Shown here: in pieces, positions 33,357 to 64,000 of the stretch
Position numbering within the stretch: the stretch's first letter is position 1
How the letters are laid out: every line of letters begins with the position of its first letter
Source of the DNA: Desulfomarina profundi
Lineage (GTDB): Bacteria > Desulfobacterota > Desulfobulbia > Desulfobulbales > Desulfocapsaceae
Direction: 5' to 3'
Assembly: GCF_019703855.1 (NCBI RefSeq)
Contig: NZ_AP024086.1
Coordinates: 3,058,501-3,122,500 of the forward strand
Length of the DNA: 64,000 nucleotides
Position numbers and translations under genes: made by a program
Notes under the pieces: model-generated
Seen by the model: the letters and a program-made list of their open reading frames with translations, nothing else
What the model was told of the DNA's origin: nothing
The model's database searches: none

Positions 33357-36300
33357 ATGCAGGCATATACAATCAAAAACAAAATAGCCATCATCAGCAT
33401 TCTTGCCTGCTGCCTCTATTCATTTTTCATTGGACTGTGCTTTTATTTCGATACCGTTCAGGAAAAAAAAAACACCATGGAGGTGGCACGTAATAGAGCA
33501 TTGACTGTTTACAAAAAAGACCTGGCCTTTCGCTCATGGGCTGCGGAACATGGCGGTGTATATATTTTTCAGAATGACACAAACTCTCCTCATGCCCATC
33601 TGAAGACCACCCCGGAGCGAGAATTCCTCACCCCTTCCGGCAAGAAACTGATCCTCGTCAATCCCGCATCCATTCTTCAACAGGTCTCTGAAAATTTCAA
33701 TAAGCTTAACAGGAAAAATGACCAGCTTCCAAGCTTGAAAATCTTTAACCGCAACACGGCGACTGACGGATGGGAAAAAAAGGCCACAGCACAGCTGTCC
33801 GCAGGCAGTCAGGAGGTGTTCCAAACTGCATTATCCCGAAACAATCCTGTATTGCGATTAATAAAACCAATCAGGCTCCGAAAAAACTGTCTGCGTTGCC
33901 ACGGCCCGGACGGATACAAAGAAGGAGATACAAAAAGTATTGTATCAATCACTGTACCGTTACAGCCATTCCTCGAGAAGGAGCGAGAAAATATCAAATT
34001 TCTCTTTCTCCTGCATTTTTCTTTCTGGATAGTTGGTGTCGCCTTCATACTGGCAGCATTCTTCTGGGGAAGACGCAGGATTGTTGAGCGAATCCATTCA
34101 AGAGAAGCGCTGTTGAAAAGTGAAAACGATTTTCGTTCGATTTTCAACAACTCTCCCATGGCAATGGTAATCATGGACAATAACGGGGAAATGCTTTCCT
34201 TCAACCATCGTTTTTCCATACTGTTTGGTTTTGGAAAAAACGATATCAGGTCCATGACGGAGTGGTGGGAGAAACTCTTTCCGGAACAGGAATACCGAAA
34301 TAAAGTAAAAAAGTGGTGGTCCGAAAGTGTTGTCAGCTCGCGAAATGATGAGAAGACAGTGGAAACAAGTGCATGGACAACGACCAGGAAAAACGGGGAT
34401 ACTCTCACCATCGAATTCAGCCTGGTTCCCCTGACGGATATGTCAGTAATTACCCTGAACGATATTTCCACTCAGAAACAGGCCAAGGAAGCCCTGCAGA
34501 TAAACGAAGAACGATTCAAAGATGCCCAGAAGCTTGCCCATGTCGGCCACTGGGAATTCGACCTGAGAACAAAAGAGCTTATCTGCTCTGAAGAAATATT
34601 CAACATTTTTGAAATGAAACCGGAGCAGTTTAAAAATTCTTTCAGACCATTTCTCAAAAGGGTCCATCCGGAAGACAGGAAAAATGTTTTCAAAGCCTAT
34701 TCAAATCTTGAACCCGCTAAAGCCCCCCGTGAGATAAGCCACCGTCTTCTTCTCTCCAATGGACGGATCAAATTCATCCAGGCAATTTTCCGCACAAAGC
34801 ACGATGACACCGGTACTCCCGTCTGTATACGAGGTACTGTCCAGGATATCACTGCCCGCAAAGAAGAGGAAACACTGCGAATTCGACTGCAGACAGCCAT
34901 CGAGCACACGGCAGAAAGCATTGTCATAACAGATAAAAACGGTACAATTCAATATGTTAATCCAAGATTTGAAAAGATCACCGGTTACTCGAGAAAAGAG
35001 GCCATCGGCAAAAACCCACGTGTTCTCAGAAGTGGCAGACATAACCGGGAATTCTACAGAGATATGTGGAAAACCCTGTTTGAGGGCAAGGTGTGGAAAG
35101 GTCATTTTATCAACAGGAAAAAAGACAACAGTCTCTACGAAGAAGAGGCAACTATTTCTCCAATATTCAATTCCGATGGAAACATTACTGCTTTTGTTGC
35201 TGTAAAGAGGGATGTTACCGAACAACTCAGGCTGGAAAAACAGCTGCGACAAACTCAAAAAATGGAAGCTATCGGTACTCTTGCCGGCGGTATTGCCCAT
35301 GATTTCAACAACATTCTGGCAGCTATCCTCGGTTATGCTGAAATGGCCAGAGAAGATTGTCCGCCTGATTCAACCATCGCCGATGACCTGGACAAAGTAC
35401 TTACAGCCGGTCATCGGGCCCGTGATCTGGTGCAGCAGATTCTGGCTTTCAGTCGTCAGACAGACACAGAACGTATCCTCTTTTCCCCGGAAGCAATTGT
35501 GAAAGAGGCCATAAAAATTCTTCGACCTTCAATTCCAACAACTATTGATATTCACCAGGATATTGAACCGGATATCGGCTCCATCCACGCCGACCCCACC
35601 CAGTTCAACCAGATCCTTATGAATCTCTGTACAAACGCCTACCATGTTATGGAGAAAGATGGCGGGATACTGACAATATCTCTTAAAAGAATGACTCTTG
35701 AGGCGAAAGGTCCCTATCATGGTTTTGAAATCAAGAGCGGACAGTTTATCCAGCTGACAGTGCAGGATACCGGCCCGGGAATCCCCAGGGAACTGAAAGA
35801 AAAGATTTTTGAGCCTTATTTTACCACAAAAAACATCGGTCAGGGAACCGGGATGGGCCTTGCGATAGTTCACGGTATTGTCAAAAGCCTGGAAGGACTC
35901 ATTGAAGTGGAAAGTCCCTCCGAAGGTGGTGCAGCTTTCCATATATACCTGCCGGTTTTCCAGGAAAAAGCCGTTTCAGAAAACCCTGTTACAAGCAGGA
36001 GCTTTGCGGGCCATGAAAAAATACTGCTGGTTGATGATGAGGAAATGCTGGTCAACATGGGAAAAGACATGCTTGAAAGACTGGGGTACTCTGTCACTGT
36101 AAAACAAGACGGCAGGCAGGCCCTGGAGGCATTTAGAAAGCATCCCGATCAATTTGACATCGTCATTACCGACCAAACCATGCCGGGCATGACAGGATTA
36201 AACCTCTCACGGGAAATTCTCGCAATCAGACCAGACATACCTGTCATCCTCTGCTCCGGCTACAGCTCCATAATTTCAGAAGACAAGGCTAACGCCATCG

Positions 36301-36380
36301 GCATCAGGAAATACATAATGAAACCCATCACTCAGCAAACCATTACCAGGCTCATCAGAGAAATTCTGGATAACAGATAA
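33357..36380 (+). CDS. hybrid histidine kinase with periplasmic c-haem (Tll0287/DUF3365-like) sensor, three PAS domains and REC
   Basis: 1007 residues. Helix ~10-31, a periplasmic domain with C178LRCH182 (CxxCH, c-type haem) near its end, second helix ~215-237, PAS domains at roughly 255-370, 380-500 and 510-635 (each with the PAS/PAC pattern, e.g. ITDKNGTIQYVNPRFEKITGYSRKE), HisKA H-box GTLAGGIAHDFNNILAAILGY, HATPase (NLCTNAYHVM, DTGPGIP, GTGMGLA) and receiver domain (LLVDDEE, TDQTMPG). The haem suggests redox, O2 or NO sensing. It follows the bd-like operon on the same strand, so it may control respiratory genes. ATG at 33357 lacks a strong ribosome-binding site. Confidence 0.9.
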   Translation: MQAYTIKNKIAIISILACCLYSFFIGLCFYFDTVQEKKNTMEVARNRALTVYKKDLAFRSWAAEHGGVYIFQNDTNSPHAHLKTTPEREFLTPSGKKLILVNPASILQQVSENFNKLNRKNDQLPSLKIFNRNTATDGWEKKATAQLSAGSQEVFQTALSRNNPVLRLIKPIRLRKNCLRCHGPDGYKEGDTKSIVSITVPLQPFLEKERENIKFLFLLHFSFWIVGVAFILAAFFWGRRRIVERIHSREALLKSENDFRSIFNNSPMAMVIMDNNGEMLSFNHRFSILFGFGKNDIRSMTEWWEKLFPEQEYRNKVKKWWSESVVSSRNDEKTVETSAWTTTRKNGDTLTIEFSLVPLTDMSVITLNDISTQKQAKEALQINEERFKDAQKLAHVGHWEFDLRTKELICSEEIFNIFEMKPEQFKNSFRPFLKRVHPEDRKNVFKAYSNLEPAKAPREISHRLLLSNGRIKFIQAIFRTKHDDTGTPVCIRGTVQDITARKEEETLRIRLQTAIEHTAESIVITDKNGTIQYVNPRFEKITGYSRKEAIGKNPRVLRSGRHNREFYRDMWKTLFEGKVWKGHFINRKKDNSLYEEEATISPIFNSDGNITAFVAVKRDVTEQLRLEKQLRQTQKMEAIGTLAGGIAHDFNNILAAILGYAEMAREDCPPDSTIADDLDKVLTAGHRARDLVQQILAFSRQTDTERILFSPEAIVKEAIKILRPSIPTTIDIHQDIEPDIGSIHADPTQFNQILMNLCTNAYHVMEKDGGILTISLKRMTLEAKGPYHGFEIKSGQFIQLTVQDTGPGIPRELKEKIFEPYFTTKNIGQGTGMGLAIVHGIVKSLEGLIEVESPSEGGAAFHIYLPVFQEKAVSENPVTSRSFAGHEKILLVDDEEMLVNMGKDMLERLGYSVTVKQDGRQALEAFRKHPDQFDIVITDQTMPGMTGLNLSREILAIRPDIPVILCSGYSSIISEDKANAIGIRKYIMKPITQQTITRLIREILDNR

Positions 36381-39162: not shown

Positions 39163-40806
39163 TCAGTTGACAATAACCCCTGCCATGTTCGGAATCTGCA
39201 TTCCATGATGGAACAGATAGGCAATAATGACCGCAACTGGAATGATAAAAAGAAAGAGGGAGACAAAATAGACCCAGACCATTTTGCCGAACTGTGCTTC
39301 CGCCAGTTTTTTGAAATCGGTTATTATGCCGAGGCTCATGAAAGTCAGCATGAAAAAGAGTTTTCTCATACCTTTTTCAACGGCAACAGCACCCACCTTG
39401 GCATTTTTGAGAACTGCCAGTCCTTCGGGGGTGGAGCCTGACTGTCCGGGGCCAAAAAAGATACCGAGATAGATCCACCAGGCAGCAAAATAGCCCAATA
39501 CAAACTTGGGAAACCGGAACCAGACTTCCGAGAACGGTACCCGATCTCCCTCATGTTTCTCAATCTTGTAGACCCAGAACAGAGCAAGGACAAACGCCCA
39601 GAGTCCGATAAACATATCGATCCAGATTTTAGTCATGACTGCACTGGTGGTAATAACCCCGGGCATCCAGACAATTTTGCCACCACTCTCCTTTTCAACC
39701 TTTGCACGCATGAACTCATCAAGCAGTTCACCGGCTGCAGCATCGGCGCCGTCGGTTTTCACAGCCATACCCATTGCTGACCCGGCGACAATGGGATCAC
39801 TGGTTCCCGGCCACACATGGGTAAAGACTCCCGGTAAAATAACCAGTTCAATAACAGCATAGACAACGACAAGGGCAGAAACCATAATGGAAACTATGGG
39901 CCTGGCCCGCACGGCGCCACCCGTCGCTACAGCTGCTGAAACACCGCAGATGGAGATGGCCGAGCCAAGCACTGCCGCTGTTTTACGTGGCAATTTGAAG
40001 ATGAGCCGGGAAATCGTATAGACACCCGGCCAGAAAATCAGGTAAGCCACAACCGTTGCGGCTGCACCGGCCACAAAAAGTTCAAAGGTAAGATGGGCCA
40101 TCTGCTGGCCAATCTCCGCCCCCTTCGCCCCCAGCTTCGAACCGGTCAGAACAGCCTTGATGGGCAGATAACCAACCTTGACCCCAAGAAAAACAATGGC
40201 GGTCTTGATATACCATTCTGGTTTGGCCGCTTCACTGAGATAACGTGCAAGAGGTTTAAAAAAATTACCTATAAGGAGTCCCACCACAAGAGCCAGAATA
40301 AAGGAAGCACCGCCGCCGAGGGAAAGGGTGAAGGTACCCGCCGGAAAATGGCTTTTTTTCAGGTCAACAGCCGATGCAGCGAAAAAGGCATTATGACCGA
40401 TAAACCAGACTGCATAGGTCAAAAAGAAAATGATTGTCCAGCCAACCACAAAACGCTTTATATCCCACTTCTGGAAATAAGCTCCAATAGTAGTGGCAAT
40501 AGTAAAAACAATATAAGTAACAAAAATGGAGCCGATCGGCCCAAGTGACTTGTAAGCTGCCTTGGCGGTGAGACTGTATTTCCCGCCAAGGGCGTAAAAC
40601 GATTTGTCAATCGTGACTATTTTCTTTGCAATTGCGCCATCGGGCATGGAGGCGACCCAGATTTTCGGATAGGATATCCATCCAACCAGGTCGACACCCG
40701 AAAGCGTCAGAAGACCGAGAATAAAAAAGGCAAGACCCAGCCAGACTGCCCACCAGTCCTCTGTTGTGGCCATGCCGGAATACCAGTATCGTTGCGTTTT
40801 AGCCAT
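39163..40806 (-). CDS. YeiH/UPF0324-family membrane carrier (putative sulfate exporter family)
   Basis: 547 residues, about 12 or more transmembrane helices. The family core is clear: FILALVVGLLIGNFF, KTAIVFLGVKVGY, LPRKTAAVLGSAISICGVSAAVATGGAV (the conserved ICG(V/A)SA signature) and, late, FFMLTFMSLGIITDFKKL. It is ~200 residues longer than Escherichia coli YeiH, with an extra N-terminal part (two or three helices plus hydrophilic segment). Strong AGGAGG site. Preceded on the same strand by two small genes. The family name is a prediction; transport of sulfate, sulfite or another sulfur oxyanion is unproven. A second long member is at 62405-64000. Confidence 0.85.
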   Translation of the reverse strand: MAKTQRYWYSGMATTEDWWAVWLGLAFFILGLLTLSGVDLVGWISYPKIWVASMPDGAIAKKIVTIDKSFYALGGKYSLTAKAAYKSLGPIGSIFVTYIVFTIATTIGAYFQKWDIKRFVVGWTIIFFLTYAVWFIGHNAFFAASAVDLKKSHFPAGTFTLSLGGGASFILALVVGLLIGNFFKPLARYLSEAAKPEWYIKTAIVFLGVKVGYLPIKAVLTGSKLGAKGAEIGQQMAHLTFELFVAGAAATVVAYLIFWPGVYTISRLIFKLPRKTAAVLGSAISICGVSAAVATGGAVRARPIVSIMVSALVVVYAVIELVILPGVFTHVWPGTSDPIVAGSAMGMAVKTDGADAAAGELLDEFMRAKVEKESGGKIVWMPGVITTSAVMTKIWIDMFIGLWAFVLALFWVYKIEKHEGDRVPFSEVWFRFPKFVLGYFAAWWIYLGIFFGPGQSGSTPEGLAVLKNAKVGAVAVEKGMRKLFFMLTFMSLGIITDFKKLAEAQFGKMVWVYFVSLFLFIIPVAVIIAYLFHHGMQIPNMAGVIVN

Positions 40807-56521: not shown

Positions 56522-58210
56522 TCAACAAGCCTTTTCCAGATCCTCCCATAAATCCTCCACCCATTGATATCGTTTATAAACGTCGTAGGCCATGGCCTTC
56601 ACAATAATCTTCTCCAAGGCAACGGACAGATTTGCACTACAATTTCCGGGAGCCGGAATCTGTTTCTTAAGTTGTAGCCACTTCTGGAGTGATATTCGTT
56701 TCTCGCCAAAGGGTACATTTCCTGTTGTTGCCAGGTAAAGCAGGATACCAATGGCATAGATATCACTACGAGAATCCCCTCGTTTGCCCTGGATTTGTTC
56801 CGGTGCCATATACAACAAATCCCCCTGTGGTCCAAGACCGGCTGCAACAATGGGATCCTGCAACTGATCACTTGCGGCCAGCCCCATATCAATAAGACGT
56901 AATTTCTGTCTTTCGTCCAGCATCAGGATGTGTGGCCGCAGGTCGTGGTGAACAATACCCGCAGCATGGAAGGATGCGACCAGATCACAGAGCTGTGAAA
57001 AAACAGGCAGCAACAGCCGATCTTCCATCCGTTCTTTATCCTGCAGCGAGATAAGACTCTTTCCCCGGATTTCTTCCAGGATCAGCACGTCACCTACGCG
57101 GTCTTTGACCCCCGGCAGGCATGGGTGTGATACTGTTTCAAATAATTGGAGCTCTGTTTCAAAACAGCATCTGTACAATGGATTCTGCAACACTTCGTCA
57201 AAACCGATTTTGAGAGCCACCTTATCCGACGATGCAGTCGCATGGCCTTCGTACAGCCATGACATGGCGCCAGCAGCAACCGGCTGAGTAACAACATAGT
57301 CACCGATAAAATTGGGCTGTAGAGAGGCGCCTTTGCGGGCAGAACGAACATAACGTCGCAGGGAACCCAGAGAAGCATGCAACACATCAAGCTCGTCTCC
57401 CGGACCGGGGGCACTGTTTTTTTTCCTTTTTTCATCCACAATTGATACCATTGCACCAAGACGTTCAATGACTAATTTCTGGAAGAGCAGGTTTAAGAGC
57501 CAGAGCCAGACCAGTGTTGTAAGCAGAGTGATAAAAAAAATAACCAGGCTACCTTGCCATGCTTCCCGAAATGACGCGGAAACAGGGATAGCCACCGAAT
57601 CGATACCTGCCAGATCACCAGCCTGAAAACGAAACCCTCCCTTCTTACCGTATCGATCTATAAGAGACTGCGGGGCATCTTCCACTTTGCCATGACAGCG
57701 GATACAGGGAGAAGAAAAATAATCGGGAACCATGGAGATGAAGAAGGACTCTCCGTTTTTCTGCACTATACCCTGCCAGAACAACCGTTCAGGATCCATT
57801 TCAAACCAATCCAGCATCTCCTCTTCAAAGGGGTCGGCCAGATTACGCATATTATGTGGATTCACCGAAGCCCTTCGGTAGATGTAATTGGGCATCGATC
57901 CGGCAAAACGTTCCATGATGGAGGTACTGACGTAGGTGGTTGACATTGCCTCAATAATAAAGGCATTCTGGCCGTGCAGCTCAAACATTTTGGGACGGAG
58001 TTCTTCTCTGACGTAGGCACGGATAGCCTCAGCTTCCCGGAGGATGACCTCGGATTTGGTCATGGCCTCAGCCATGACCAGTCGCCTTGTATTCCAAAAA
58101 GAAAGCGCTGACAGCAACAGACCACCTCCAATAAGTATAAGGGCTGACCAGAGAAAAAAGCGTTTTCTGAGATTGGTGGTTACCCCTTGTCCATATCTCT
58201 TGATTTTCAT
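56522..58210 (-). CDS. membrane serine/threonine kinase-like protein with periplasmic c-haem (DUF3365) sensor
   Basis: 562 residues. Helix ~18-38, periplasmic DUF3365/Tll0287-like domain (MAEAMTKSEVILREAEAIR; haem motif C169IRCH173), second helix ~221-243, HAMP-like linker, and a Hanks-type kinase domain (~300-560): Lys in KVALKIGFDE, LILEEIRGKSL, HHDLRPHILMLD catalytic loop, LIDMGLA in place of DFG, and MAPEQIQG. The catalytic-loop Asn (HRDLKPEN) is replaced by Ile, so activity may be lost or altered. It is the last complete gene of the 64.0-56.5 kb operon, following the phosphatase by 18 bases. It could convert redox or gas sensing by haem c into Ser/Thr phosphorylation. Confidence 0.87.
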   Translation of the reverse strand: MKIKRYGQGVTTNLRKRFFLWSALILIGGGLLLSALSFWNTRRLVMAEAMTKSEVILREAEAIRAYVREELRPKMFELHGQNAFIIEAMSTTYVSTSIMERFAGSMPNYIYRRASVNPHNMRNLADPFEEEMLDWFEMDPERLFWQGIVQKNGESFFISMVPDYFSSPCIRCHGKVEDAPQSLIDRYGKKGGFRFQAGDLAGIDSVAIPVSASFREAWQGSLVIFFITLLTTLVWLWLLNLLFQKLVIERLGAMVSIVDEKRKKNSAPGPGDELDVLHASLGSLRRYVRSARKGASLQPNFIGDYVVTQPVAAGAMSWLYEGHATASSDKVALKIGFDEVLQNPLYRCCFETELQLFETVSHPCLPGVKDRVGDVLILEEIRGKSLISLQDKERMEDRLLLPVFSQLCDLVASFHAAGIVHHDLRPHILMLDERQKLRLIDMGLAASDQLQDPIVAAGLGPQGDLLYMAPEQIQGKRGDSRSDIYAIGILLYLATTGNVPFGEKRISLQKWLQLKKQIPAPGNCSANLSVALEKIIVKAMAYDVYKRYQWVEDLWEDLEKAC

Positions 58211-58228: not shown

Positions 58229-58969
58229 TCAGGTTCCTTTACACAGGCGTCTGCCGAGAACAGACGGTAGACCGGCATCCAGATCTGCCTGCACTGTTTT
58301 TTCCACATCATAGGCTACCCGATAAAACTCCAGTTTTTCCTCACGACTGTCATAAATAAGGTAACAGGAGCGGGGATCCCCATCCCGGGGTTGCCCTACG
58401 CTACCGCAATTGATGATGCAACGCCTGCTGTCGGCCAGCTCAAACTGCATATTGCCCGGGACGGTCTGCAGAGTCACAGCCAGCAGGTGTTTTCTGGTTA
58501 TCACCAATGGTTGGTGGCTGTGGCCGATATAAAGAAGACGGCAACTGGTGGCACCAAAGCTGCGCAGGGCGTATTTGCGGTCCATAACATAACGCCAGCC
58601 TCTGGGATTATATGGGTTAGCATGGACAAAGGTCATGTCAGCCAGATCGAGCCGGTCCGGCAGTGCTGCCAGATATTTTTTATTTTCTTCGCTCAGTTGC
58701 TCCATGGTCCACAGAATCACCTCTTTGGCAACTGAGGACATACCGTAGGGAGAAGTCTCCCAAAGGGCGGCCAGGTCGTGATTACCGGCAAGGACACGGC
58801 AGTTTTTCAGGCCACGTACCAAGCGAATGCACTCATTGGGATAAGGGCCGTACCCCACCAGATCTCCCAGGCAGATACTTCTGTGTACATTTCGTTTTGC
58901 GGCATCATCAAGCACACTCTGCAGTGCCTCCAGGTTGCCATGAATATCAGAAAAGATCATCAACCGCAT
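58229..58969 (-). CDS. metallophosphoesterase (PP2A-like/YfcE-type family)
   Basis: 246 residues. Calcineurin-like motifs in order: FSDIHGNLEAL, GDLVGYGPYPNE, LAGNHD, HANPYNP, and YIGHSHQP, giving the di-metal ligands. Proteins of this COG are bacterial PP2A-related phosphoesterases. Its ATG directly follows the stop codon of the kinase-Usp-CZB gene (TAAATG), so the two are tightly coupled. With kinases on both sides a protein phosphatase role reversing their phosphorylation is the natural inference; nucleotide hydrolysis is an alternative. Confidence 0.87.
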   Translation of the reverse strand: MRLMIFSDIHGNLEALQSVLDDAAKRNVHRSICLGDLVGYGPYPNECIRLVRGLKNCRVLAGNHDLAALWETSPYGMSSVAKEVILWTMEQLSEENKKYLAALPDRLDLADMTFVHANPYNPRGWRYVMDRKYALRSFGATSCRLLYIGHSHQPLVITRKHLLAVTLQTVPGNMQFELADSRRCIINCGSVGQPRDGDPRSCYLIYDSREEKLEFYRVAYDVEKTVQADLDAGLPSVLGRRLCKGT

Positions 58970-60910
58970 TTATTTACCCTCCCCTGACCGGCAACCTGAT
59001 ACTCTTTTCCTCTTTTCCTGGACCAGGGAACAGAGATCCTGATCCAGGTTGAGGGCTTTCAACAATGGGCCGTAACAGGCCAGATCCGGTTTGCTGACCG
59101 GGCAGGTGTTGTCCGTCAGAAAAGGAACCTGGGGAGGGGGCGAATCGAGATGGGTACGAAGAAATAGAGAAACCCGGCTCAGTTCATGTTTCAACCTGCA
59201 AGAGAGTGGCAGAAATTCACGGGTATAGAGGTCTTGCAGACCTTCAGGATCATGGTCGCAAAGTTCAGACATCCTGGAGGCAAGCCGGTGAAAGCGGGAA
59301 TGAATTGGCACCAGTGCTGAGGTTACCTGCAGCCATTCATCCTTTTTTTCAAAAAAGGCCAGAAAGCGGCCAAACAGACAGTTGTTTTCGCTGAGATCAA
59401 CATCCTGCTGAGGATTCAGGAGCCTGCGGTAGATAAAATCTGTATGATAATGGAGATGCTCATACCAAAGATCAACGAGAAAGATATCACAGGCAAGCAC
59501 CTGCCCGGCTGTCAACTGGGCAGGTTGCTGAGCCGCCAGACCTGTGGCAGGTGAAAACACCACATTATCAGCAACCACAATTGGGCAGGGGCTATTATTT
59601 TCCAGATGTCTGCGTACGGAAACAGTGCCTAGCATCCCTTGCTTTTTACGGGATTCGGCCAGTACCAGCAGTTCCGCGCCCAGATCTGTACAGAGTTTGC
59701 GCAGCACATCAACCACCTCACCCCGAACAAGGCGAATACTGGGATCAATACTGCAGCGGCGAAGAAGCTGTACAGCCTGTTCGAGACGTCCCATCAGCTT
59801 CTCCCCTTCGACAGCGATGCCGTAGCGTCTGAAATGGGAGTCGTCCTCCTCTTCAATAACATGCACCAGCGTTATTTCTGCAGATCGGATAAGTGCCTCT
59901 TTTTTGACTTCGGCCAGCATATTGTCGCTACCGGGAGAATCTATTAAAGCACCAATAATCTGTGGTTTATCATATGTAATAGTTGTTTTTTGTGGTTGTC
60001 TACGCTGTAACCGGATCGGTTTACCGGGAAATATGCGTCGCCACAATGATGACGATTTGTTTCTGCTGCCTGCCTCAGTGACCGGGAGTTGCTGCCAGTG
60101 ATTAAGATCATGCAGAAGATCCATGACATCTTTATAACGATCTGCAGCGTGGCGGGCAATGGCGCAGAGAATTATGGATTGGATCTGAGGAGGAATTTTG
60201 TCATTGTGATAACGTGGCGGGGTCGGATCATAATGCAGGCGCCGCCTGGCGACACGTTTCTTACTGGTGCGGGGCCAGGGTAACCTTCCGGTAAGCATCT
60301 CGTAAAGGAGCATACCCATGGTATAGATATCGCAACGGGGATCAGACCTTTCACCCAGCAACTGCTCCGGCGAAATATACCAGGGAGTGCCCAGGGGGTT
60401 TTGCAAGTCAAGCTCCAGCAGATCAGGAAGATGTCGGCAACTGGCCAGACCAAAATCTATCACTTTGATGGAGGAGTTATTGCAACAGATAATATTTTCG
60501 GGCTTCAGGTCCAGATGGACAATGCCCTGCCTGTGGAGATAAGAAACCACGCGCGCAAGTTGTTTCATCAGGATCAAAGCTTCACGCAAATCAAGGATGC
60601 GGTTTTTGCCGATACGGGAGCGTAGATCTTCCCCCTCCACATGCTCCATGATAATATACTGCCGACTTTTCTGGCGGTGGATAAAACGTATAACTCCGGG
60701 GTGATCGAGCAGCCGACTGATACGGTCTTCATTTTGATAATGATAGAGAAGGAGAGGATGATTGAGAATGTTGCTGTCGGGTATTTTCAGAACAACATGC
60801 TGTCTGGAAAACAGATCCTCTGCCAGAAAAATGCTGGCAAGCGGGCTTTTATGAAGCCGTGAACTAAGTACAAAAATATCGATATTATCGCCGACTTCAG
60901 GAAAAGTCAT
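58970..60910 (-). CDS. serine/threonine kinase fused to Usp and a CZB-like zinc-binding domain
   Basis: 646 residues. Residues ~8-285: complete Hanks kinase with Lys42 (VVLKIPDSN), IVHLDLKPENII, VIDFGLASC, ISPEQLLGE, DIYTMGMLLYEM. Residues ~315-465: universal stress protein domain (IIGALIDSPGSDNML ... LLVLAESRKKQGMLGTVSVRRHLENNSPCPIVVAD). Residues ~480-580: DLWYEHLHYHTDFIYRRLL ... ENNCLFGRFLAFF ... PIHSRFHRLA, the His/Cys spacing of a CZB (chemoreceptor zinc-binding) domain. Cytoplasmic. No transmembrane helix. Between a small membrane protein gene and the phosphatase. A zinc- or oxidant-responsive kinase is inferred from the CZB Cys. Confidence 0.86.
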   Translation of the reverse strand: MTFPEVGDNIDIFVLSSRLHKSPLASIFLAEDLFSRQHVVLKIPDSNILNHPLLLYHYQNEDRISRLLDHPGVIRFIHRQKSRQYIIMEHVEGEDLRSRIGKNRILDLREALILMKQLARVVSYLHRQGIVHLDLKPENIICCNNSSIKVIDFGLASCRHLPDLLELDLQNPLGTPWYISPEQLLGERSDPRCDIYTMGMLLYEMLTGRLPWPRTSKKRVARRRLHYDPTPPRYHNDKIPPQIQSIILCAIARHAADRYKDVMDLLHDLNHWQQLPVTEAGSRNKSSSLWRRIFPGKPIRLQRRQPQKTTITYDKPQIIGALIDSPGSDNMLAEVKKEALIRSAEITLVHVIEEEDDSHFRRYGIAVEGEKLMGRLEQAVQLLRRCSIDPSIRLVRGEVVDVLRKLCTDLGAELLVLAESRKKQGMLGTVSVRRHLENNSPCPIVVADNVVFSPATGLAAQQPAQLTAGQVLACDIFLVDLWYEHLHYHTDFIYRRLLNPQQDVDLSENNCLFGRFLAFFEKKDEWLQVTSALVPIHSRFHRLASRMSELCDHDPEGLQDLYTREFLPLSCRLKHELSRVSLFLRTHLDSPPPQVPFLTDNTCPVSKPDLACYGPLLKALNLDQDLCSLVQEKRKRVSGCRSGEGK

Positions 60911-61002: not shown

Positions 61003-61575
61003 TCACTGGCCAAGAAATACATAACCAATCACGATTATGAAAATTACCACCAGCTCCACAACAGTAATTTTGGTCAGCATCAGACATATTTTTCGCTGTG
61101 ACGGGTTCATTTGCAGGATCATCCGGTTCATGAGCAAACGAAAAAAAACCGTGCGGGGTGTGGTGGAAACATAAAGTCTGAGATATTCCTGAATCCCGCG
61201 AACCCAGAGCAGGATATCCTGTTCCAGCTCATCATTAAAAGCTTCCTCTTCATAACGAACCCGTACCTGCGTTTTCTCTTGGTCTGCAAAAAAAAGCAGC
61301 TCCTGTACACCATAATCAAAGAGAGTAATCCGCATGATTATTTCAGCCTGAAACGGATCATCTGGGGCCGAAGTGCTATCCAGTTGCAGGCCTAGAGAAA
61401 AGGTCTGTTCCGTAGCGTAATCACGAAGGTTTGCAAAAAGAGCGGTATGCCGCTGCTCTGTATCTTCGAGGAACCAATGGGGATGAAGCCTGAGCAGTCT
61501 TTCTGCATCAAGAATGGTGGAGGTGGCAAGTGTTGTTGCTGCAGGAGTCAGATACAGGTCATAACACTGTTCCAT
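61003..61575 (-). CDS. tail-anchored membrane protein of unknown function
   Basis: 190 residues. Soluble alpha/beta N-terminal part (LDAERLLRLHPHWFLEDTEQRH, then a strand-rich stretch ending EKTQVRVRYEEEAFND) and a single C-terminal helix (~168-188, ITVVELVVIFIIVIGYVFLG). It starts one base after the UspA stop, and lies before the kinase-Usp-CZB gene. This geometry suggests a membrane docking partner in the same system. No family recognised. Confidence 0.65.
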   Translation of the reverse strand: MEQCYDLYLTPAATTLATSTILDAERLLRLHPHWFLEDTEQRHTALFANLRDYATEQTFSLGLQLDSTSAPDDPFQAEIIMRITLFDYGVQELLFFADQEKTQVRVRYEEEAFNDELEQDILLWVRGIQEYLRLYVSTTPRTVFFRLLMNRMILQMNPSQRKICLMLTKITVVELVVIFIIVIGYVFLGQ

Positions 61576-61576
61576 A

Positions 61577-62071
61577 TCAATCCACAGGGTGTGAAGAAGG
61601 TGCTATAAGCAGGGGGCAGGGCAGAACAGGATGCAGCTTTGCCTGATCAATACGTGCCCTGAGCCCTTTTTCCATCTTCAGGTTAAACAGCCTCCGGCTT
61701 TCACGGTAGGGGCCGATAACAATAAGATCACTTTTCCGTTTTTCGGCCTCAGCGGCAATAGTTGCCTCAATGAAACCTACTTCCCCCACAAAGGTTGCCT
61801 GTGCTGCTGCCGGATATTTTTCTTTTATCCGCTGCCAGTCCTCTTCATTTTCTTCCTGCATCTGTTTTTCCACGTGGTCAAGGAAGGTGGTATGTGTTTT
61901 GCTCGAGTTAAGCCAGTCATCACCGGTCATGGCCTGCCAGTCCTGGTCAATGATAGTCAGAACAGTGACCTGCAAATCAGGCTTTTTAACGCATAGTTCG
62001 TCAAAAACAAGCCGTTCTGCCTGTCTGGCACCTGCAGTTCCGTGGGTACAGAGAAGAATAGAAGTAAACAT
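61577..62071 (-). CDS. universal stress protein (UspA family)
   Basis: 164 residues. Opens ILLCTHGTAGARQAERLVFDEL and contains FIEATIAAEAEKRKSDLIVIGPYRESRRLFNLKMEKGL then PVLPCPLLIA, the C-terminal nucleotide-loop area; the usual G(2x)G(9x)G(S/T) is degraded (GPYRESRR), so ATP binding is doubtful. Translationally coupled to the tail-anchored protein gene. Part of the minus-strand operon with the carrier and kinases. Confidence 0.85.
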   Translation of the reverse strand: MFTSILLCTHGTAGARQAERLVFDELCVKKPDLQVTVLTIIDQDWQAMTGDDWLNSSKTHTTFLDHVEKQMQEENEEDWQRIKEKYPAAAQATFVGEVGFIEATIAAEAEKRKSDLIVIGPYRESRRLFNLKMEKGLRARIDQAKLHPVLPCPLLIAPSSHPVD

Positions 62072-62186: not shown

Positions 62187-62384
62187 TTACATCCACTTTG
62201 TAAAAACCAACACAATAAAGGTTGTTACCAAGGATAGGATAAGGGCTGTCATATCCTCATTACGTTCACTGGCAAATACGGAAAGTGCACGTTCTTCAAG
62301 CTCTTCCGTATTCGCATTCTTGGCAATTTCAGACTCTCCCTTACCGGCATCACCTGTTTCAATGGTAATTTTATCATCACTCAT
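62187..62384 (-). CDS. small single-pass membrane protein, carrier companion
   Basis: 65 residues. Polar, Glu-rich N-terminal part (KGESEIAKNANTEELEERAL) and one C-terminal helix (~45-63, MTALILSLVTTFIVLVFTKW). GGAGGATTT site before ATG at 62384; the longer upstream frame overlaps the carrier gene and is unsupported. Lies 20 bases after the second YeiH-like carrier. Same size and topology as the protein at 41129-41317 next to the first carrier, though the sequences are not obviously alike. Confidence 0.72.
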   Translation of the reverse strand: MSDDKITIETGDAGKGESEIAKNANTEELEERALSVFASERNEDMTALILSLVTTFIVLVFTKWM

Positions 62385-62404
62385 TTTCAAATCCTCCGGA
62401 AATG

Positions 62405-64000
62405 TTATTTTAACACCACATCTTTTACCAGCCACAATACGACTACGAAAGAAAGTGTGGCTTTTGTGACGCCTGAGATACAGCCAATGACCAGCGGCCA
62501 TCCGCCTGCCTGAAAAATCGCCTTCTTGGTGATCTGCATACCAAGCCCGATCAGACCAAAGGCAAAGAACCAGATCATGCAGTCGGTCAGGGTGGTGACA
62601 GTCTTGGACTTTTTATGCACCTGTTTGATGGCATGGTGGATCGCTCCCTTAACCTCTTTGTCCAGGGTGATTTCCTTTGCCTTCGCAGCCGCCAGGATTG
62701 ATTCCAACTGGAACATCCGCGCTTCAGCCTGCTTGTTGAAAACCTTTTTGTCGGCACGGCTCTCAAAATTACCGGCCAGCTGACGCTGGGCAATAATGTC
62801 TTTCACTGCGGCCATCTGCTCACCAGTGAGGCCCTTGATTGAACCGGCCTGCACTGCACTATTTAAATTCTCCCACTCCTGTTCAGTAATCTGGCTTCGT
62901 TCATTATAACTGTAATCAATGAATTTTCCCTTGTAATGGGTTGGTGGTGAAAAAAGGCCCATGGAAGACATGGCAAAGAGCAGCAGGAAACCGATGATAA
63001 AAATGGGGAATTTGTCAATGACAACTTCTTTAAAGGTTAATTTTTTCCCGGATTCTTTACCGAACCAGGTTGCCAGCACCAGCACGATGATCGGCAGAAA
63101 AAGGACGCGGGTAATGTTGAAAATCTCCGCGACCTTCAAGGTCTTGATATCAACGGCGTTAAAGGCCAGGGCTGCTGCTGCAACCTGGGCAGAGTTAAGG
63201 ATACCAGTTCCTGCCCAGGCACCAAACTGGACAGGGTTCATGCCTGCCCAATGACCGACGGTGGGAAAAATGAACATACAGATAATACCAAAAGAGAGAA
63301 TGGTGCCGATGGTATAGGCCATCTCTTCACTCTTGGCTTTAACAACAGGGGCAACGGCCACGGTGGCAGAAACACCGCAGACACCCATACCAGCGGACAG
63401 AACACCGGTCATGGTTTTGGGCTGTTTAAACATTTTGCCGAGCCAGAGGACAAAAAATACCGTTCCCAGGACAAAGGTGCCGACCAGCACAACACTGTAA
63501 GAACCAAGTTTGGCCAGTTCGGCAAAACTGTATCGTGCGCCGAGCATGATAACGCCCATTTTGAGGACAAACCGGGCGCATTTGACGCCGGCAGCGGCAA
63601 ATTTAGGAATACCGTAGGTATTGGTAATAACAACACCGGCGAGCAGGCCAAGGATAACATAGTTGAGATTCAGGACCTTGTATATTTTAAAACCGAGTAC
63701 CGGTTGCAGGCTGTGGCTTATCAGCTTAACCACTGGCTCAACGTACCAGCGAATGGCCATTGCCATAATCAGAATGAACAAAATGCCGGGCAGGGGCTGC
63801 AGAATAAAACGGTCAATAATTGTATCGCCGGGTTTTCGAACAGAATTAATGATAGCGCCAACTATGCCCACACCTCCGACAATAAGGCCCATACTTACTT
63901 GAAGATCTGCTGTTTTGGCTGTGTGAAGGTATTTCATCAAAGGATGCAAGACGCCGCTGCTGGCTATCAATGCATAAATAATCAGAAGGCCGCTGAGAAT
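62405..64000 (-). CDS. YeiH/UPF0324-family membrane carrier, second copy (5' end beyond window)
   Basis: At least 531 residues; the frame stays open to the window edge (ILSGLLIIYA before the TTG at 63970), so the true start is outside. Family core: NYVILGLLAGVVITNTYGIPKFAAAG, LKMGVIMLGARYSF, MTGVLSAGMGVCGVSATVAVAPVV, GTGILNSAQVAAAALAF, and a final IWFFAFGLIGLGMQITKKAI. A ~130-residue hydrophilic insertion (~residues 345-475 of the visible part, including SQITEQEWENLNSAVQAGS and coiled-coil-like QLESILAAAKAKEITLDKEV) interrupts the membrane part. It leads the operon with uspA, kinases and phosphatase; the insertion is a plausible target of that regulation (inference). Confidence 0.86.
   Translation of the reverse strand: MLSGLLIIYALIASSGVLHPLMKYLHTAKTADLQVSMGLIVGGVGIVGAIINSVRKPGDTIIDRFILQPLPGILFILIMAMAIRWYVEPVVKLISHSLQPVLGFKIYKVLNLNYVILGLLAGVVITNTYGIPKFAAAGVKCARFVLKMGVIMLGARYSFAELAKLGSYSVVLVGTFVLGTVFFVLWLGKMFKQPKTMTGVLSAGMGVCGVSATVAVAPVVKAKSEEMAYTIGTILSFGIICMFIFPTVGHWAGMNPVQFGAWAGTGILNSAQVAAAALAFNAVDIKTLKVAEIFNITRVLFLPIIVLVLATWFGKESGKKLTFKEVVIDKFPIFIIGFLLLFAMSSMGLFSPPTHYKGKFIDYSYNERSQITEQEWENLNSAVQAGSIKGLTGEQMAAVKDIIAQRQLAGNFESRADKKVFNKQAEARMFQLESILAAAKAKEITLDKEVKGAIHHAIKQVHKKSKTVTTLTDCMIWFFAFGLIGLGMQITKKAIFQAGGWPLVIGCISGVTKATLSFVVVLWLVKDVVLK

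Follow-up and report, generated by a model that had tools for sequence, protein, structure and literature searches.

The minus-strand gene at 56522-58210 of the window (the whole 64,000-nucleotide stretch of Desulfomarina profundi DNA that was analysed) encodes a Tll0287-type sensor fused to a Hanks-type kinase domain, the active site of which carries four replacements fixed throughout its family and seen in none of the 91 other kinase domains compared from the same phylum. We read this protein, the Tll0287-sensor/kinase, as a duplicated and remodelled kinase joined to a heme sensor, which would control its sister kinase and the neighbouring phosphatase by contact rather than by strong catalysis, and we assign this reading a probability of about 0.5. 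The parts of the protein lie in the window as follows.

56522-58210 (-): Tll0287-sensor/kinase gene, the whole finding (562 aa open reading frame; Pfam; 26 distinct full-length sequences)
58091-58165 (-): predicted first transmembrane helix (approximate), residues 16-40 (hydrophobic stretch; start of modelled helix 14-79)
57584-58081 (-): Tll0287-like / sCache_heme sensor, predicted periplasmic, residues 44-209 (Pfam PF11845, E 1.5e-35; model compared with 5B82)
57692-57706 (-): CIRCH heme-c attachment motif, residues 169-173 (C, C and H invariant, 26/26)
57476-57562 (-): predicted second transmembrane helix (approximate), residues 217-245 (hydrophobic stretch; modelled helix 211-262)
56546-57304 (-): Hanks-type kinase domain, residues 303-555 (Pfam PF00069, E 6.5e-24; model compared with PknB 2FUM)
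57209-57211 (-): beta3 (ATP) Lys334 (invariant, 26/26)
57152-57154 (-): alphaC Glu353 (invariant, 26/26)
56927-56950 (-): catalytic loop HHDLRPHI, residues 421-428 (D423 kept, Lys replaced by Arg425, Asn replaced by Ile428)
56882-56890 (-): DMG at the DFG position, residues 441-443 (invariant, 26/26)
56819-56821 (-): Asp464, replacing the P+1-loop Thr (Asp 28, Asn 2 among 30 family domains)

Pfam placed both a Tll0287-like domain (formerly DUF3365; residues 44-209) and a Pkinase domain (residues 307-550) above cut-off, which bears out the architecture that a sequence-only reading had given this open reading frame, namely a DUF3365-like sensor with a CIRCH motif and a Hanks kinase. As the sensor is flanked by hydrophobic stretches at residues 16-40 and 217-245, the protein is predicted to sit in the membrane with the CIRCH motif in the periplasm and the kinase domain in the cytoplasm. 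The model of the kinase domain matched PknB (2FUM) with a Z of 27.5 (rmsd 2.2, 251 residues aligned), and StkP and PknB are the closest solved relatives of this part. With PknB/StkP-type kinases the protein shares the fold, the beta3 Lys, the HRD Asp, the Asp and Gly of DFG, the APE motif and a membrane anchor with an outside sensor; it differs in its active site, where Ile or Val replaces Asn, Arg replaces Lys, DMG takes the place of DFG and Asp that of the P+1 Thr, and in the order of its parts, with the sensor N-terminal of the kinase here and C-terminal there.

The full-length model was poor in the sensor part, so residues 36-215 were modelled separately, built on 56 sensors. This second model (mean pLDDT 90) matched the Tll0287 crystal structure 5B82 with a Z of 17.2 (rmsd 2.7, 156 residues aligned), the next match scoring 9.6, and as modelled the sensor is a true Tll0287 Cache fold. 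Tll0287-type domains are heme-c Cache domains (2026 preprint, PMC12889525), and the C, C and H of the CxxCH motif are invariant in all 26 full-length sequences. Because the periplasmic part of the orthologs holds no Cys beyond CxxCH, the extra Cys residues sitting in membrane helices, the sensor falls by sequence into the NO-type signalling class that has no axial Cys; a tested signalling-type member without this Cys bound NO and formed no stable oxygen complex (PMC12889525). The domain is likely an NO or redox heme sensor, its heme loading and its ligand being what we infer from these resemblances.

The sensor thus resembles Tll0287 and other sCache_heme domains (PF11845; 5B82; PMC12889525) in the CxxCH motif, the Cache fold, the predicted membrane-proximal position in the periplasm and the missing axial Cys of the signalling subgroup. 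Its output, in contrast, is a Ser/Thr-type kinase domain, outside the histidine kinases, chemoreceptors, GGDEF/EAL proteins and guanylate cyclase that have been reported for sCache_heme (PMC12889525), and no published fusion of Tll0287 to a Ser/Thr kinase was found in the literature. If our reading is true, the outputs of heme-c Cache sensors extend to Ser/Thr kinases. The genome encodes four Tll0287 proteins, among them a hybrid histidine kinase within the window (33357-36380 (+), 1007 aa) that combines a Tll0287-like sensor of its own with PAS domains and a receiver domain. A separate idea, that the sensor was copied from the locus's own histidine kinase, is unsupported, as the two sensors form separate clades.

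The altered motifs named by the sequence-only reading (HHDLRPHI with the Asn lost, DMG, and a retained ATP Lys, K334) were all recovered. In the alignment to solved relatives, HHDLRPHI pairs with HRDLKPQN of StkP without a gap, so Ile428 stands at the position of the metal-binding Asn. In order to compare this change with homologues, as had been proposed, a first alignment held the window protein and 15 relatives that are 47-78% identical to it, and a second held 26 distinct full-length family sequences chosen by overall similarity alone. In addition, 30 family kinase domains, which were selected using three of the diagnostic letters (letters that also hold in the similarity-chosen 26), were compared with 91 kinase domains from outside the family but within the phylum.

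Position 428 is Ile in 18 of the 26 full-length sequences and Val in the other 8, with Asn in none; position 464 is Asp in 25 and Asn in one; and H421, H422, D423, R425, D441, M442, G443, K334, E353, G314, S317 and W318 are invariant (26/26). The background comparison separates the family from the other domains completely at four sites. At the Asn position, family domains have Ile (20) or Val (10) and the others Asn (91/91); the catalytic-loop Lys is Arg in 30/30 family domains and in 0/91 others; the DFG Phe is Met in 30/30, a residue never seen in the others, all 91 of which have Phe or Tyr; and the P+1 Thr is Asp (28) or Asn (2) in the family, as against Thr (82), Ser (6) or Lys (3) and no Asp or Asn elsewhere. 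Two of these changes, catalytic-loop Lys to Arg and P+1 Thr to Asp, had gone unnoticed before and are equally diagnostic. Relatives with a canonical HRDLKPEN, which would have reduced the Asn change to a sequence error or a lone mutation, were looked for, and no family member among the 26 full-length sequences or the 30 domains has the Asn. The family is also invariant at the APE Glu, the alphaF Asp and the second glycine of the Gly loop.

As these changes are fixed across the family and dN/dS between close pairs is low (0.07-0.18 in the kinase part, 0.05-0.13 in the sensor), the gene is functional and its altered site is under purifying selection. A sequence error, a frameshift or a decaying gene, for which nothing speaks except the oddity of the motif, is excluded for practical purposes by identical changes in 26 distinct sequences from many independent assemblies and by dN/dS far below 1. 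A transfer of the Asn role to neighbouring position 427 is likewise excluded, that position varying among Q, H, E, G and A. On a contig of another genus (G108:C312:3904-4302), there is a short family fragment with an internal TGA, which could be a copy in decay or an artefact of the contig.

The kinase domain has the fold, beta3 Lys, alphaC Glu, HRD Asp and DFG Asp of a Hanks kinase, and lacks the catalytic-loop Asn and the P+1-loop Thr/Ser. Pseudokinases are usually defined by loss of the beta3 Lys, the HRD Asp or the DFG Asp (PMC12599244), and all three are invariant here (26/26). The earlier suggestion that the protein may be a pseudokinase therefore holds in part: the loss of Asn on which it drew is fixed in the family, whereas the three-residue definition speaks against it. 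DMG, which had also been taken as a sign of inactivity, is weak evidence, as the metal-binding Asp and the Gly are both kept. We also dropped DMG plus a weak Gly loop as proof of inactivity; the first Gly of that loop is lost in the family, mostly to Ala, but the loss is common to the intact sister kinase. The bacterial pseudokinase families ActPs, GLW, CP1, DYD and DLHK (PMC12599244) show conserved, family-specific motif changes of a similar kind, but one of the three key residues is lost there, whereas here all three are kept and the Asn is lost; the DLHK family is described as retaining the Asn (PMC12599244).

The closest single match for the Asn change is the plant receptor pseudokinase BIR2, in which Asn171 is Val and which is inactive (PMC4718504). 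Both proteins have an aliphatic residue at this position and retain the beta3 Lys and the DFG Asp; bulky Gly-loop residues fill the BIR2 pocket, however, whereas this family has an invariant second Gly and mostly Ala in place of the first. ILK has Ser at the Asn position and binds ATP together with one metal ion that only the DFG Asp coordinates, and CASK is listed as active, with cations inhibitory (PMC4718504). By analogy, the most likely state of the altered site would be nucleotide binding with one metal and poor catalysis. R425 and D464 might touch each other or a metal, a conjecture based on where they would lie in the kinase fold.

The main rival reading is that of an active, atypical one-metal kinase, in which Asp441 would hold the metal, Asp464 and Arg425 would compensate for the lost Asn and Lys, and the sensor would gate phosphotransfer to the sister kinase, to Usp or to a target in the membrane. 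Every catalytic residue bar the Asn is invariant in the family, the joint change of Asn, Lys, Thr and Phe fits a site that was rebuilt rather than one that is decaying, and both CASK and ILK lend this account some precedent. Against it stand the inactivity of BIR2, the literature consulted, which yielded no kinase combining all four changes, and the P+1 Asp, which would lie near the catalytic Asp and be expected to disturb the binding of a Ser/Thr substrate. We regard an active kinase as tenable and somewhat improbable. For control of the sister kinase by contact, the invariant beta3 Lys, alphaC Glu, HRD Asp, DFG Asp, second Gly, APE Glu and alphaF Asp count against the reading, as they exceed the needs of a dead scaffold; the diagnostic replacements, universal in the family and never seen in the 91 background kinases, count for it.

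The neighbouring genes provide context that was absent from the sequence-only reading, namely a phosphatase and a ten-gene locus, of which the following members lie upstream in the window.

58229-58969 (-): metallophosphoesterase (calcineurin-like), candidate cognate phosphatase (Pfam PF12850, E 5.8e-16)
58970-60910 (-): intact sister kinase, a Ser/Thr kinase with a Usp domain and a C-terminal helical part (PF00069, E 2.4e-39; Usp, E 2.5e-8)
61003-61575 (-): 190-aa protein with a C-terminal hydrophobic segment (conserved in the locus; no Pfam or NCBIfam match)
61577-62071 (-): Usp (universal stress protein; Pfam PF00582, E 5e-7)
62187-62501 (-): small conserved membrane protein, 104 aa open reading frame as listed (conserved in the locus)
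62405-64000 (-): YeiH-like putative transporter, open reading frame continuing past the window (L045 9406-11109; Pfam PF03601, E 6.4e-53)

The intact kinase that had been placed two genes upstream is the one at 58970-60910, with the metallophosphoesterase gene between; its HLDLKPEN, DFG and GT are conserved among orthologs. In the window, the last three genes of the locus (sister kinase, metallophosphoesterase, Tll0287-sensor/kinase) are separated by gaps of 0 and 18 bp, and the metal ligands of the metallophosphoesterase (D8, H10, D36, N63, H64, H116, H150 and H152) are kept in at least 95% of 31 sequences. Gene order in the locus is conserved in nearly all long-flank loci holding the Tll0287-sensor/kinase. 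One side consists of a divergent histidine kinase, with its own Tll0287 sensor, and an NtrC-type regulator; the other runs through a 99-aa protein (recognised in only part of the loci), the YeiH-like transporter, the small protein, Usp, the 190-aa protein, the kinase-Usp protein and the metallophosphoesterase to the Tll0287-sensor/kinase. In one divergent locus, L042, neither Usp nor the 190-aa gene is recognisable, and the divergent histidine kinase is missing at that spot. A sigma-54-like -24/-12 element, GGGCACTGATATTGCT, lies past the window end at L045 11593 (- strand), between the divergent arms and upstream of the operon, and in a motif scan without chance control most of the orthologous loci showed a comparable element at the corresponding site. 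No match was found in the literature joining Desulfobulbales, this kinase type, Usp and YeiH.

In a maximum-likelihood tree of 94 kinase domains, the Tll0287-sensor/kinase family forms one clade, on a long stem (1.36 changes per site), and the kinase-Usp neighbours form another, with support of 99/97 for the joint clade. Among the 31 genomes of the class that hold a Tll0287-sensor/kinase, 30 also hold the sister kinase, and in the one exception the Tll0287-sensor/kinase gene lies at a contig end. Close neighbour kinases without a Tll0287-sensor/kinase occur in only two genomes, on contigs ending there. More distant kinase-Usp relatives (33-36%) also occur without it, and two of them adjoin the same phosphatase. 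As distant relatives pair with this phosphatase without the Tll0287-sensor/kinase, the latter looks to have been added onto a kinase/phosphatase module, and the simplest history is that of a kinase/phosphatase pair in which the kinase was duplicated in or near the operon and one copy was fused to a heme sensor. With the top few candidates per genome scored, no full-length sensor/kinase fusion was found outside the order in 395 phylum-wide genomes, so the fusion seems confined to Desulfobulbales.

Sister clades, close linkage and co-occurrence in 30/31 genomes offer indirect support for a partnership with the intact kinase. In STRAD-LKB1 and HER3-HER2, an altered kinase domain is similarly thought to regulate an intact partner, which here is also the phylogenetic sister; the pair proposed here differs in being bacterial and in carrying a heme-c Cache sensor. 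A nucleotide-independent scaffold could instead tie the heme sensor to some other partner, for example the transporter or the 190-aa membrane protein. The neighbourhood encodes several conserved membrane proteins without an assigned role, and in BIR2 an aliphatic replacement of the Asn accompanies an occluded pocket (PMC4718504); the nucleotide-binding residues are invariant, however, and the sister relation and shared phosphatase point toward a kinase pair. We consider such a scaffold unlikely.

Under the preferred reading, control of the sister kinase and phosphatase by contact, the periplasmic heme-c Cache domain would bind a ligand, most likely NO, or track redox state, and the resulting change would pass through the second transmembrane helix and the linker to the kinase domain. 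This altered domain would probably bind nucleotide with at most one metal, and good phosphate transfer would not be expected of it. By contact with the sister kinase (58970-60910), and perhaps also with the metallophosphoesterase (58229-58969), it would shift their balance on shared targets, for which the co-encoded Usp, the 190-aa membrane protein and the YeiH-like transporter are candidates. Expression would probably be set from a sigma-54 promoter by the divergent histidine kinase, which has a related heme sensor, and its NtrC regulator.

All the parts of this system belong to known kinds; neither their combination nor the set of four fixed replacements was met in the literature consulted. 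In its fullest form, the proposal is of an operon-born pair of a kinase and a near-pseudokinase sister, the altered partner having gained a heme-c NO/redox sensor and four fixed changes that make up an undescribed form of the site, and controlling the intact kinase and phosphatase across the membrane; we would put the odds on all of this slightly below even. Such a pair would provide a simple bacterial case of a kinase without the metal-binding Asn under strong selection, beside an unaltered sister and a phosphatase, in which one could test whether keeping all three key residues is compatible with being a non-catalytic regulator. It would also give a named handle on NO/redox signalling in Desulfobulbales.

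A chemoreceptor zinc-binding (CZB) domain on the sister kinase was considered and rejected, the Pfam match being weak and below cut-off and its His/Cys residues not invariant. The sister kinase encoded in the window has Ser in place of the second Gly-loop glycine (LHKSPLAS, residues ~20-24), unlike nearly all of its orthologs. Besides the YeiH-like copy in the locus, the window encodes a second, more divergent YeiH-like (Cons_hypoth698) protein at 39163-40806 (-), with an E of 1.1e-12.
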